This document shows, one piece after another, positions 37,271-64,000 of a stretch of 64,000 nt of DNA (positions are counted from its first letter, which is position 1; each line of letters starts with the position of its first letter). Origin of the DNA: Methanogenium cariaci JCM 10550 (lineage in GTDB: Archaea; Halobacteriota; Methanomicrobia; Methanomicrobiales; Methanomicrobiaceae); NCBI RefSeq assembly GCF_001315945.1, contig NZ_BBBG01000001.1:186001-250000 (forward strand), in the 5' to 3' direction. Under the pieces are notes generated by a model. The model had not been told where the DNA came from and ran no database searches. It saw only the letters and a list, made by a program, of their open reading frames with translations. A program made the position numbers and the translations under genes.

Positions 37271-38404
37271 TTATCCGTTCCGTACCGCGTCTGCGATCCA
37301 GGCGCCTGCTTCACGGGTGCCAAGGGAACCGCCGAGGTCCACCGTGGTCTGTTTTGCTGCGATGCTCTGCTCAATGGCTGCAAGCACGCCTGCGGCCGCT
37401 TCCGGTTCGCCGAGATCATCGAGGAGCAGGGAGCCTGCCCAGATGGTCGCAATGGGGGGGTTTGCCCGGTTCATGCCCTTGTATTTTGGCGCCGAACCGT
37501 GGATGGGTTCAAAGAGTGAGGTGCCCTTTGGGTTGATGTTGCCGCCGGGGGGGGCGAGGCCCAGACCGCCCTGTATCATCGCACCCAGGTCGGTGATGAT
37601 GTCACCGAACATGTTGGGGGGGGCGACGACCACGTCAAACCATTCGGGGGGGTTTTTCACAAACCACATGGTGATGGCGTCAACAAAGGTGAACTCGGTT
37701 GTGACTTCCGGATAGCGTGCGGCCGTCTCGGTAAAGACGTCCCGCCAGAGGCCGTAGACGTCAGAGAGCACATTGGCCTTGTCCACACTCGCAACTTTAT
37801 GGTTCCGCTTCATCGCCGCATCAAAGGCATACTCCATGACCCGTGCCGATCCTTCGCGTGATATGACACCAATCTGGTAGGCGATCTCCTCGCTGTCGGA
37901 CTCGACGTCCAGACCGAATTTGATGGAGTAGATGTCACGTATCACTTCAAGGTCACGGTGTTCTTTTCCTTTGAACCGCGAGCCGATGCCGACGTAGAAG
38001 TCCTCGGTATTCTCACGGACGACGAGGAAGTTGATGTCGTCAGGCCCTTTCCCGGCCAGGGGGGGTGTCCGGGTGCCCGCGAGCATGCGCACCGGCCGGA
38101 GATTGATGTACTGGTCGAAATGGAACCGGAGACCGAGGAGGATACCCTTTTCGAGGATCCCCGGTCTGACGCGGTCGTCGCCGATGGATCCGAAGTAGAT
38201 GGATTTGAAGGCGTCGAGTGCCTTCAGATCCTCTTCGGTGAGAAGCTCACCGGTCTCAAGATACCGGTCTGCCCCCCCGATATCAAAGTCGGTCCAGTCA
38301 ATGTCAAATCCATATTTTTCTCCTGCTGCATCGAGGACCACCTTTCCGGCGTCCACGATCTCCGGGCCGATGCCGTCCCCGCCGATGGCGGCTACTTTGT
38401 ACAT
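37271..38404 (-). CDS. leuB: 3-isopropylmalate dehydrogenase (LeuB)
   Basis: Oxidative decarboxylation in leucine synthesis. 377 residues in one open frame. [58 protein letters not shown] and [26 protein letters not shown], then [13 protein letters not shown], are the family motifs for substrate and NAD. Last gene of leuCDB; it overlaps leuD by 13 bases. Clearly different from the second dehydrogenase at 61453. Confidence 0.92.
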
Positions 38405-38882
38405 GTTTCTATCTCCGTGAGGATCTTTGCGTATTCAACCAGTCCGCCCGCATCGATGATTTTGCGCATAAACACCGGCACGGGTTCGACTGCGAGGGTG
38501 CGTTCTCCTGCGGTCAGGTATCCCTCGTCGAGGTGGAGGGTAATTTTTTCATCTTCGGTGATGCTGTCAGCCTTTGGGCATATCACCGGCAGGATACCGG
38601 TGCTGATGCAGTTGCGGTAGAAGATTCGTGCAAAGGATACGGCAACGACTACCTGCACCCCGGCGCCCCGGATGGCAATGGGGGGGCGTGTTCGCGTGAG
38701 GAACCGCACCCGAAGTTTCTGCCCGCAACGATGATGTCCCCCCTCTGCTGCCTCTGTTGCGAATGCATCCCTCGTGCTTCGAAGGCATGGGCCGCCAGTT
38801 CCTTCGGGTCGTAGAGGGTGAGGTAGCGGCCCGGTATGATGGCATCGGTGTCGATGTCATCGCCGAATTTCCAGGTCGCCAT
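38392..38882 (-). CDS. leuD: 3-isopropylmalate dehydratase small subunit (LeuD)
   Basis: About 163 residues. [20 protein letters not shown], then [17 protein letters not shown] and [16 protein letters not shown]. The substrate-loop residues after R-Y are L-T-L (YLTL), hydrophobic as in isopropylmalate isomerases, not the YLRT of homoaconitase seen in the second copy at 63312. Frame change near 38690. One base separates it from leuC. Confidence 0.92.
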
Positions 38883-38883
38883 A

Positions 38884-40156
38884 TTATGCCACCTCCCGCG
38901 GGTCGGTTATTTCGCCTGTTATCGCACTGGCAGCGGCAGTGGCCGGTGAACAGAGGTAGACCTCTGCCTCGGTGCTCCCCTGCCTGCCGCGGAAGTTGCG
39001 GTTGGAGGTGGAGAGCGAGACCTCGCCCGGTGCGAGAATGCCGAACGCCCCCCCGCCCATGCACGGGCCGCAGCAGGGTGCCTCGACCATTCCCCCCCCT
39101 GCCTCGACAAAGGTCTCGATGAGGCCTGCCCGGAGGGCCTTCAGGTATTCGGTCTTTGAGGCGGGCACGATGATCACCCGGATGTCCGGTGAGAATTTCC
39201 GGTCGCCTAGGACCTCTGCCGCTTCTGCCAGGTCTTCATACCGGCCGTTGGTGCAGGACCCGATAAAGACCTGATCCAGCGGTGTGCCCTCATATTTTGT
39301 CACATCCGCCACATTGTCCACGTTGTGGGGGGGGCCGCAATCTGCGGGACGAGGTCGGCTGCGTCGTAGTCCCGTTCCACTACATACGTGGCGTCCTCAT
39401 CCGGGGGGGCGAGGTCAAACCAGCCGCCGTCCATGCGTCCGCCGCAGTAGGCGCGGGTCACCTCGTCCGGTGCAACGATGCCCGCCTTGCCGCCCATCTC
39501 AATGGCCATATTACAGCAGGTCATCCGGCCGGGGGGGACAGACATGTCTGAGATGGTGTCGCCGGTGAACTCCACTGCCCGGTAGGTGGCGCCGTCCACC
39601 GTGAGGTCGCCTATCATCGAAAGAATGAGGTCTTTCGGGCCGACACGGTGTGAGAACCTGCCGGTTGTGGTGAGTTTCAGACTCTCCGGAACCCGGAAGT
39701 GGAGGGCGCCGTACTTCATCGCGAAGCCCATGTCGGTTGAGCCGATGCCGGTGGCAAAGGCTCCGATGGCCCCCCCGTAGGTGCAGGTGTGCGAGTCACC
39801 GCCGACGACGATGTCGCCCGGACGCACCCGTCCCTTCTCGACTGCCACCTGATGGCAGACACCCTCGTGAATGTCGTAGTTGAGAATTCCCTGTTCGGCA
39901 GCAAATGCCCGCATAAATTTCTGGTTCTCTGCTGCAGGAATAGAGTCGGCCGGGACCTGATGGTCAAAGAGCATAATAATCTTTGCCGGGTCAAAGACCG
40001 TCGTTCCGTCCATTTCACGGAACTTCTTGATTGCAAGCGGGCCCGTGATGTCATGGATCATCGCTGCATCGATGGGGGGGCTATCATGACATCACCTGCT
40101 GAGATCTTCGTTGCGCATCTGCGGGAGAAGATCTTCTCTGTGATTGTTGCTGCCAT
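38884..40156 (-). CDS. leuC: 3-isopropylmalate dehydratase large subunit (LeuC)
   Basis: About 420 residues. [20 protein letters not shown] at 40156 (ATG 40168 is an alternative). Then [47 protein letters not shown], and the Fe-S ligands in [12 protein letters not shown] and [11 protein letters not shown]. Frame changes at the 7-C tract near 40078 and near 39325. First gene of leuC-leuD-leuB. Confidence 0.93.
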
Positions 40157-61452: not shown

Positions 61453-62447
61453 TCAGTTTTGTTCCATTAACCGGCTGAGTCCGGAGATCATTGCGGCACC
61501 CACCTCCCTGGTGGATGCCTTCCCGCCGGTGTCGGGTGTCATGATGCCTGCCTCTGTTGTCAGGCGGATGGCATCTTCGATAAGGGCTGCCCCGGCGATA
61601 TCTCCCTGATGGTGCAGCAGCATCGCCGCCGACCGGACGGCGGCAATGGGGTTGGCGATGCCCCCCCGTCCTGCGATATCCGGGGCGCTCCCGTGTACCG
61701 GTTCAAAGAGGGCGTGCGAATCGCCGATGTTGGCGCTGGGCAGCATACCCAGTCCCCCCCCACCAGATAGGCGGCTGCGTCAGAGAGGATGTCGCCAAAG
61801 ATGTTCGTGGTGACGATGACATCATACCGCTCCGGGTGCATGAGCACATCCAGTGTCAGGGCGTCGATGAACGCGGTGGTGTAGCTGACGCCCATCTCTT
61901 CTGCTGTTCTGATACAGATGTCACGGAAGAATACATCCGATTTGATGACGTTTGCCTTGTTCCCGATGGTGAGCTGGTTTTTGCGTTCCCGTGCAATGCG
62001 GCAGGCGGTTCGTGCAATCCGCTCGCTCCCCTTGCGGGTGATGACCCGCAGGGTGGAGGCCCGGTCTTCCTCCTGCCATTCAATCCCGGAGTAGAGGCCT
62101 TCGGTGTTCTCCCGCACGACCATGATGTCCACTCTGTTTCCCTGAATGGGCCGGAGGTTGGCATAGAGATCCAGTTCCTTTCGGATCTGCAACACGACAC
62201 TGCGGTAATCGGATGCCGGGGGAGTGGTCACCGCCCCCCCAAAGAGGATGGCATCCGCATCCCGGAGGAGGGAGATGGCATCTGCCCCCCCGCATGCCTC
62301 CCCCCCGGTTCTCTGCCATGTCGCGTAGCCGACTTCCACCGGATAGAACTCATACTCCGGGTGGAGGAGGGCAAGGACGTCACGAGCCACCGGGATGACT
62401 TCCCGTCCGATGCCGTCCCCCCCTTCCACGACTGCAATGGCGGTCAT
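61453..62447 (-). CDS. aksF: Isopropylmalate/homoisocitrate dehydrogenase family (AksF-like)
   Basis: About 330 residues. [94 protein letters not shown] and [20 protein letters not shown]. The G-A-(V/I)-T-(T/S)-P and the S-A-N-I-G-D elements follow the methanogen AksF type I remember, and differ from leuB at 37271. In coenzyme B synthesis it would oxidise homoisocitrate and longer homologues. Choice between AksF and a second LeuB rests on the operon (see the YLRT loop of the small subunit). Confidence 0.8.
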
Positions 62448-63315
62448 TTCTGATCCCCCCCTTTTCTCCCCCCCTTTCTTCCTTTTCGTTCGATTTTCTT
62501 TCTTCCCAACCTGCACAGATGGCAAAGACTGCCTCGGCGATGGTTCGGGGGGGGTGGCCCCCCCCAGTGGACGACTGCCCCGTAGTATCCATCATGGACA
62601 CCAATGCCGGCCCGTTCCGACCGGCAGCAGCGGGCGATGAATGGTTCTGCTGTTACCTGGTTTGCGGGGGGGCAGATGTCGGTGACCGAGAACGCGGCCT
62701 CCGCTCCGTAGCATTCGGCAAGCACCTGGCGTGCGGTCAGGCACCCTGCGACCGTTTCATCACCCCCCCGCAGACGGTCATTGTCAATCGTCCGGGAGAA
62801 TCCTGCCGCCCGGCAGGGGGGTAGGCCTCTGCGTCAGTCTTCCGGATGTCTGCGATATGGTAGCAGAACTGCACCGTGCATTCCCCCCCGAAGAGGCCGG
62901 TCTGTTCCAGGTCACGGATGTTGTGGGCGAGATTCGGCCGGGGCGGTTCTGCGTCATAGACATGGATCGTAAAGAGTTCCTCTTCTGACGGGTCACAGAC
63001 AAAGGTCCTGTGCTCATCCAGCCCCCCCGTAAAGACGGTGCAGCGTTTTCCTGTCGCGAGTGCCCGCCGGATGAGGTCGGTGCGGTTGTGGAGGTTCACC
63101 TTTTCCGGGTACATGCAGACATCTGCAGCGCCCGCCAGCAGGCGGGATGATTTTATCGCACGGAGCATTGTCGTGCCTGCTTCCGGTTCAACCGCCCATA
63201 CTTCATGGCCGGTATCCGTGCGGCGGACAAGGTAGCGGGAGAGGAAGTATACTCGCTCTCCGGCGGGCTTCTCATCTGCCGATCCGACGGTCTTGCACTC
63301 TTCCGGGAAGATCAT
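62444..63315 (-). CDS. Conserved protein inside the aks-type operon, function unknown
   Basis: About 290 residues. [60 protein letters not shown]-like core, then [40 protein letters not shown] and, in another frame, [41 protein letters not shown]. It starts on the leuD-type stop (ATGA) and its TGA overlaps the dehydrogenase ATG, so all are co-translated. Several Cys and His are conserved-looking. I cannot place it in a known fold; I recall an archaeal DUF7714 label for such proteins but cannot confirm it. Frame changes near 62755 and 62560. Confidence 0.65.
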
Positions 63316-63783
63316 TTGTTTCTCCAGTAGGGAACGAGCCCGCCTGCCGCAAGAATCTCCTGCATCCGCTCTGAGAGGGGGGGCGGATCGGGTGGCGCAC
63401 CCCGCCCGTCTCCACCCAGCCCTCCTCCAGTGATATAATGACGCTGCTGCCTTCAGAGCAGGTCAGCCCTTCGCACTCAATGACCGGCAGACCGACATTG
63501 ATCGCATTCCGAAAGAAGATCCGGGCAAAGGAGGGGGCGATGACGGCGACGGCACCCGCCTCCCGTATGGCGACCGGTGCCTGTTCGCGGGATGACCCAC
63601 AGCCCATATTATTGCCTGCCACAAGAACGGCGCCCTTCAGCGGGGAGCAAGCGTCGGGTCGAGGTCTTCGAAGACATGTTCGGCCCAGACGGAGGTGTCC
63701 TTTGTCCGGAGGTAGCGACCGGCGATGACAAGGTCGGTGTCGATGTCGGTTCCGATGCAGACGGCAGGGCCGGAGAGGGTCAT
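63312..63783 (-). CDS. aksE: Homoaconitase small subunit (AksE-type)
   Basis: About 157 residues. [60 protein letters not shown] and [20 protein letters not shown]. The loop after A-G-R is Y-L-R-T. In published work on the Methanocaldococcus enzymes, YLRT marks homoaconitase (binding homocitrate and longer chains) while isopropylmalate isomerase has YLV-type loops. Hence the coenzyme B assignment. Frame changes near 63645 and 63380. ATGA overlaps on both sides. Confidence 0.85.
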
Positions 63784-64000
63784 AATACCCCCCTCCGGTG
63801 AGGTTATTTCGCCTTTCAGCGCACTTGCCGCGGCCGTTGCCACCGAGCCGAGATAATACTCCGCCCCCCCGACGCCCATCCGGTTTTTGAAGTTGCGGTT
63901 GGCAGTCGAGAGGGCAACCTCCCCTTCACCGAGGACACCCATGTGCATGCCGAGGCAGGGGCCGCATCCCGGCGGGCCGACCATACACCCGGCGGCGATG
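63780..64000 (-). CDS. aksD: Homoaconitase large subunit, C-terminal part (AksD-type, partial)
   Basis: The visible 73 residues include [20 protein letters not shown] with two Fe-S cysteines, [20 protein letters not shown] and [19 protein letters not shown]. The stop TGA overlaps the small-subunit ATG (63783) after a G tract at 63788-63793. The rest lies beyond the window edge. Large subunits of the leucine and homoaconitase types cannot be told apart here; the pairing with the YLRT small subunit decides the call. Confidence 0.8.

Follow-up and report, generated by a model that had tools for sequence, protein, structure and literature searches.

A DUF7714 gene related to bacterial XcbA lies in an Aks operon of Methanogenium cariaci and very probably has a role in coenzyme B synthesis

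Coenzyme B (CoB) donates the electrons for methane formation. Archaeal CoB and bacterial coenzyme M (CoM) both carry an omega-thiol on a short acid chain; neither chain elongation nor the addition of threonine phosphate is common to the two. An abstract on bacterial CoM synthesis reportedly lists sulfite addition, phosphate elimination, decarboxylation, thiolation, and reduction. The passage of PMC11507031 available to us presents the bacterial protein XcbA as a functional analogue of sulfoacetaldehyde dehydrogenase, an oxidoreductase role, and the XcbA reaction as used here follows from that passage together with the abstract. In the accessible part of PMC8727900, the bacterial gene is named xcbF1, a conserved hypothetical. 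For methanogens, the text of Chadwick et al. 2025 that could be consulted (PMC12068725) describes the CoB pathway as still unknown, assigns the matching CoM step to ComF/MMP16, and suggests that this enzyme may serve CoB too. Suberate semialdehyde is listed after 2-oxosuberate in the excerpt available from PMC3087415, and the literature searched, as far as its text was accessible, assigns no genes to the steps after 2-oxosuberate. The searches on XcbA, DUF7714, YLRT, and CoB steps, from which subscription papers were mostly left out, returned no function assignment of the DUF7714 gene. The family label already exists, but the literature searched offered neither the pathway assignment nor the operon-wide gene list nor a connection to bacterial CoM.

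The gene studied here belongs to the second of two leuCDB-like sets in the window, i.e., the whole 64,000-nucleotide stretch of M. cariaci DNA that was analyzed. Both sets had been noted in a preliminary description and lie on the minus strand. The first, at positions 37271 to 40061, serves as a contrast: its small-subunit gene, ending at 38392, reads G-R-Y-L-T-L, and the sister genome holds a corresponding second copy (L195). In the second set, the 3′ end of a hacA/aksD-like large-subunit gene (63780 to 64000; Aconitase family match) runs past the window edge and continues in the contig, followed by a hacB/aksE-like homoaconitase small-subunit gene (63312 to 63783; Aconitase_C match), which reads G-R-Y-L-R-T as originally described, then by the DUF7714 gene (62444 to 63315), and finally by an aksF-like gene of the isocitrate/isopropylmalate dehydrogenase family (61453 to 62447, starting with ATG at 62447; Iso_dh, 161.7 bits). 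The last gene also matched the NCBIfam models LEU3_arch, iso_homocit_dh, and AksF2_Meth, all below cut-off. DUF7714 starts at 63315 within the end of hacB, and its stop overlaps the aksF start; both junctions are the 4-base ATGA overlaps previously reported, and they occur in the sister genome as well as in the window. Among loci of the window's taxonomic order, the start overlap is ATGA in 19/26 and GTGA in 7/26, the start pattern having been found in 26 of the 29 loci scanned.

In the window, the frames of hacB, DUF7714, and aksF are all broken. DUF7714 is split into an N part (62737 to 63315) and a C part (62444 to 62725) in separate frames because G/C runs have been lengthened in this assembly. 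Per 10 kb it has 38 runs of exactly 7, against 0.6 for the sister locus, whereas runs of 4 are too few (23 versus 62); the gaps between the window and sister DUF7714 genes fall at G/C runs. Inflated G/C runs are found throughout the window, and also in L157, and are an assembly artefact that breaks many genes; the rating of the window's genome as 59% complete fits such widespread frameshifts. The intact sister gene encodes 276 amino acids in a single frame, so that the 290 residues first given for the product are an inflated figure. This product had also been called uncharacterized. A family label does exist, since Pfam PF24830 (DUF7714; cut-off 25) matched both pieces, with 152.1 bits for the N part and 50.6 bits for the C part, and the relative L092 with 318.8 bits over residues 1 to 279. 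The protein is therefore a full-length member of a family whose Pfam entry states no function and for which a pathway is proposed here.

YLRT is the published homoaconitase signature. It is read in the solved homoaconitase small subunit 2pkp, which we take to come from M. jannaschii, versus YLVY in the isopropylmalate/citramalate isomerase subunit 3vba; the sister small subunit matches the two about equally overall. The hacB gene beside DUF7714 carries the homoaconitase loop: among 138 (redundant) hacB rows from DUF7714 loci, 131 read YLRT, two read YLRS, and five were unparsed, of which two are YLRT by eye and three are fragments, including two rows of the window's own gene. In a 30-genome search that gave 30 HacB-type loci, 27 of them parsed, YLRT was present in 7/7 DUF7714-adjacent copies and in 0/20 other copies. 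The HacB2_Meth equivalog cut-off (230 bits) was reached neither by the sister protein (152.9 bits) nor in any of the 30 genomes and may therefore be too strict; the NCBIfam equivalog cut-offs for HacA, HacB2, and AksF2 were unreached even by the intact sister proteins. In addition, the sister aksA has homocitrate synthase 6ktq as its best solved match (E 2.7e-81), followed by 2-isopropylmalate synthase (E 1.2e-64). The YLRT split and this homocitrate synthase-like gene support the earlier suggestion that the second set is probably the AksDEF set of the CoB pathway.

DUF7714 is tightly linked to aks genes. In the best-scoring loci of two genome searches, taken as the best 30 of 140 matching genomes (order) and the best 30 of 176 (phylum) and thus not a random sample, hacB lies at most 287 bases from DUF7714 in 60/60 loci, and aksF falls inside the 1.5-kb flanks in 54/60. 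The named GTDB-genome loci, which span Methanosarcina, Methanolobus, Methanococcoides, Methanohalophilus, Methanothrix, ANME-3, and others, place hacB no more than 150 bases away in 47/52 cases and include aksF in 42/52. Five of them lack hacB: two begin close to the edge of a contig and retain aksF (L089 and L104), two are only partial matches (L131 and L132), and one is without both neighbors (L121). A hand-picked set of 23 genomes, overlapping with the others as do all locus sets used for these counts, showed hacB in 15 of 20 DUF7714 loci, adjoining in 13 and with aksF in between in two (L071 and L074). The remaining five were radical SAM-linked paralogues (L061 and L080), a contig start (L062), and the copies of G320 (L064) and G395 (L073). 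No aks gene was present in the DNA seen around the copies of G320, G328, G395, and L121, that of G328 and G395 being short or at a contig end. Homologues thus mostly adjoin aks genes, and the core idea of a CoB function within an Aks operon is strongly supported by the linkage, the YLRT split, and the homocitrate synthase-like operon gene.

The surrounding operon is conserved as well. All 20 genomes examined of the window's taxonomic order, from six families, have methanogenesis marker 11 (one or two copies), radical SAM, thiamine-diphosphate (TPP) enzyme, aksA, hacA, hacB, DUF7714, and aksF in succession. These genomes comprise 14 from one search, L150 to L154, and the window's own (L157); L150, L151, L153, and L154 supplied some of the profile seeds, and none of the remaining 16 genomes did. 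In families f14 and f7, the TPP enzyme, aksA (on the opposite strand), hacA, hacB, and aksF precede DUF7714 in 3/3 loci (L145, L146, and L223), two of which supplied profile seeds. The radical SAM protein scored best against the MSMEG_0568-type radical SAM model (69 bits) and next against LipS2 lipoyl synthase (59 bits), both far below cut-off, and the TPP enzyme matched the indolepyruvate oxidoreductase alpha chain, also below cut-off (135 bits). A sequence search of solved structures (E ≤0.01) gave no match for the TPP enzyme, so that its putative decarboxylase role is read from the domain matches. In one genome of the window's genus (G037; L152:3089-5248), the radical SAM and TPP enzymes form a single fused frame of 719 residues.

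Marker 11 carries a TiaS-type kinase domain and is paired with an operon-type TPP enzyme in 8 of 12 marker 11 loci (L158, L159, and L163 in f8; L161 in f36; L165 in f14; L167 to L169 in the window's taxonomic order), the loci without this partner being L160 (f15), L162 (f30), and L164 and L166 (f9). At L158, L159, L161, and L163, marker 11 adjoins the TPP enzyme though apart from hacB-DUF7714-aksF; L162 is a counterexample. Its distribution is wider than that of DUF7714: the cut-off was reached in 18/30 chosen genomes and 2/14 controls, probably M. jannaschii and M. acetivorans, these counts including three MCR genomes without DUF7714 (G204, G228, and G167), and was missed by the f10, f12, f18, f24, and f28 genomes tested.

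The family extends beyond methanogens: bacterial XcbA matched PF24830 with 299 and 312 bits, and a profile built from 33 Methanosarcinales proteins alone matched, among 1031 ORFs from 12 loci, only DUF7714/XcbA genes (13 rows, E ≤0.041). A tblastn search with the best archaeal XcbA-like protein found nine places in six plasmid records, from Xanthobacter autotrophicus Py2, Nocardioides JS614, Mycolicibacterium chubuense NBB4 (two plasmids), and Methylocystis iwaonis (two). In 7/7 places examined, with one of the three Py2 places among them, XcbA adjoins phosphosulfolactate synthase together with lyase and PLP genes of CoM synthesis. The archaeal gene differs in having aks genes in place of phosphosulfolactate synthase as neighbors, and ComA was not found in the sister genome (G079). 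The hacA, hacB, and aksF profiles had no match in the four bacterial loci scanned (L133 to L136), and the incomplete gene table annotates no aconitase-family gene in the stretches shown of the bacterial CoM clusters. In Xanthobacter, the model CoM organism, the XcbA gene at L133:11908-12839 on plasmid pXAUT01 is broken into two frames as deposited and is missing from the PLSDB gene table. Plasmid pNOCA01 of Nocardioides JS614 holds two CoM/XcbA clusters about 25 kb apart (L134 and L227).

Window-type DUF7714 shares with XcbA (NF052538) its Pfam family, a similar length, and the same five invariant cysteines. NF052538 was the only NCBIfam model matched by the sister protein up to E 0.001. However, this protein reached only 50.7 bits, and the window N part 26 bits, against a cut-off of 150; in the chosen genomes the model gave matches in 18/23 and exceeded its cut-off in one. 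By these scores, window-type DUF7714 is a relative of XcbA rather than a member of NF052538. The tree, which was rooted at the midpoint and in which the branch of the radical SAM-linked G328 row is long and the Nocardioides row is of odd composition, groups bacterial XcbA (five rows, 100/99) with the radical SAM-linked copy of G456 and places the aks-linked copies in a different clade (100/99), with G395 inside and G320 and the two G328 copies outside. In the alignment, the residue two before the conserved Gly of xWG is His in aks-linked rows and Pro in bacterial XcbA rows.

The invariant residues in 21 bacterial and archaeal sequences include the five cysteines, in PC, GC, CP, and CC motifs (C178, C203, C225, C242, and C243 of L092), and by our own reading of the alignments the window DNA retains codons for these motifs, spread over frames. 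In the AlphaFold2 model of L092 (mean pLDDT, 91.4; pTM, 0.84), the DSSP string places all five in the C-terminal part, at strand ends or at most two residues after them. Such positions, from which we predict that the cysteines cluster, would suit an active site. Foldseek returned no significant PDB match for this model (0/636 at E ≤0.001; TM by query ≤0.20 in the 50 listed rows), so that a fold analogue is not claimed; a missing match is no proof of a new fold. Sequence searches of solved structures gave no match at E ≤1 for the window N part and just two chance immunoglobulin matches (E 0.88) for profile A1, and PADLOC and PHROGs gave no family.

Within a phylum sample of 392 genomes, DUF7714 and MCR occurred together in 168, DUF7714 alone in 8, MCR alone in 50, and neither in 166 (Fisher p 3e-53, ignoring kinship). 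MCR is thus present in 168/176 DUF7714 carriers, and DUF7714 is missing from 50/218 MCR genomes: 32 in f10, five each in f9 and f12, and the rest in f13, f15, f18, f24, f28, and f8, the f13 match being weak (E 1.3e-4). DUF7714 was found in one of 14 control genomes, that of M. acetivorans; M. jannaschii has MCR without it. DUF7714 is typical of one part of MCR-bearing archaea; its universality among MCR genomes was rejected on these counts, and another enzyme must do the step in M. jannaschii and the 50 MCR genomes without it. At L178, L181, and L185 (f10) and L191 (f28), in MCR genomes without DUF7714, the best HacB-type subunit reads AEYLTT, not YLRT.

Given the family membership, operon, conservation, XcbA homology, and invariant cysteines observed here, we consider it very probable that DUF7714 has a role in CoB synthesis. 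Elongation by AksA, AksDE, and AksF would yield 2-oxosuberate, which the TPP enzyme of the operon may decarboxylate to 7-oxoheptanoate, making it a plausible natural source of this aldehyde. The omega-thiol being common to both cofactors, and elongation and threonine-phosphate addition not, forming the thiol is the step that the two pathways would most economically have in common. The reaction that we would assign first to DUF7714, at roughly even chances, is accordingly the conversion of 7-oxoheptanoate to 7-mercaptoheptanoate after chain elongation. DUF7714 would perform or complete this reductive thiolation, with the invariant cysteines acting as persulfide carriers or as metal or Fe-S ligands, and bacterial XcbA would carry out the matching last step of CoM synthesis. 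A reaction of this type, from aldehyde to thiol, is ascribed to ComF/MMP16 and L-ASST (COG1900) in the accessible text of PMC12068725. Similarity to the COG1900 family was not detected: L092 matched only PF24830 in Pfam up to E 1. AksDEF (homoaconitase and homoisocitrate dehydrogenase) are operon neighbors of DUF7714 but elongation enzymes of a different family.

DUF7714 might instead catalyze another step of the same pathway, decarboxylating 2-oxosuberate or joining or phosphorylating the threonine part, while a radical SAM or COG1900 protein makes the thiol. In favor are the radical SAM gene of the operon, which weakly resembles LipS2, the kinase domain of marker 11, and the suggestion in the available portion of PMC12068725 that MMP16 or L-ASST may serve CoB; nevertheless, we hold this to be unlikely, because bacterial CoM contains no threonine or phosphate, so that DUF7714 and XcbA would not have a ligase or kinase reaction in common, and because the TPP enzyme is the more natural decarboxylase. 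Quite improbable is a general sulfur-relay or redox protein for small-thiol cofactors that supplies persulfide or electrons and converts no organic substrate. The invariant cysteines, the occurrence in CoM and CoB clusters, and the lack of a recognizable enzyme fold would suit such a protein, but the clade split follows the pathway (100/99), as expected of substrate-specific enzymes, although ancestry alone could suffice. As to the unassigned step or chaperone put forward in the preliminary description, the pathway step is supported. We rejected the alternative that DUF7714 assists AksDE or AksF as a chaperone, in cluster maturation, or by stabilizing them, and leave it only a slight chance despite the position between hacB and aksF with 4-base overlaps in the window's taxonomic order. 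The bacterial relatives are in CoM clusters with no aconitase-family gene annotated in the stretches shown and no hacA, hacB, or aksF match in the four loci scanned, which argues for chemistry common to CoM and CoB synthesis; M. jannaschii lacks the gene though it is the presumed source of 2pkp; and in f14 and f7 DUF7714 follows aksF.

With thiolation as the preferred step, it is conceivable, though on balance doubtful, that DUF7714 and XcbA are new-fold omega-thiol synthases in two branches, one for bacterial CoM and one for the mercaptoheptanoyl arm of archaeal CoB, independent of COG1900, and that the operon holds nearly the whole CoB pathway. It would then combine AksADEF elongation, TPP-dependent decarboxylation, and thiolation by DUF7714, possibly assisted by the radical SAM protein, and the joining or phosphorylation of the threonine part would fall to marker 11. 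The XcbA-related protein, TPP enzyme, radical SAM enzyme, and marker 11 beside AksADEF make a short testable gene list, and the last steps of one bacterial and one archaeal thiol cofactor would be tied to one protein family.

A second XcbA-type gene adjoins radical SAM/SPASM and NadA-like (quinolinate synthase) genes in G456 (L137:7374-10320) and G328 (L140:6394-9402). Both genomes have MCR and gave no ComA or ComD match, and G064 and G395 likewise gave no ComD match. This cluster possibly belongs to another route to CoM or to another thiol. At L137, by our own reading, it is followed by putative HdrC, HdrB, and HdrA genes.
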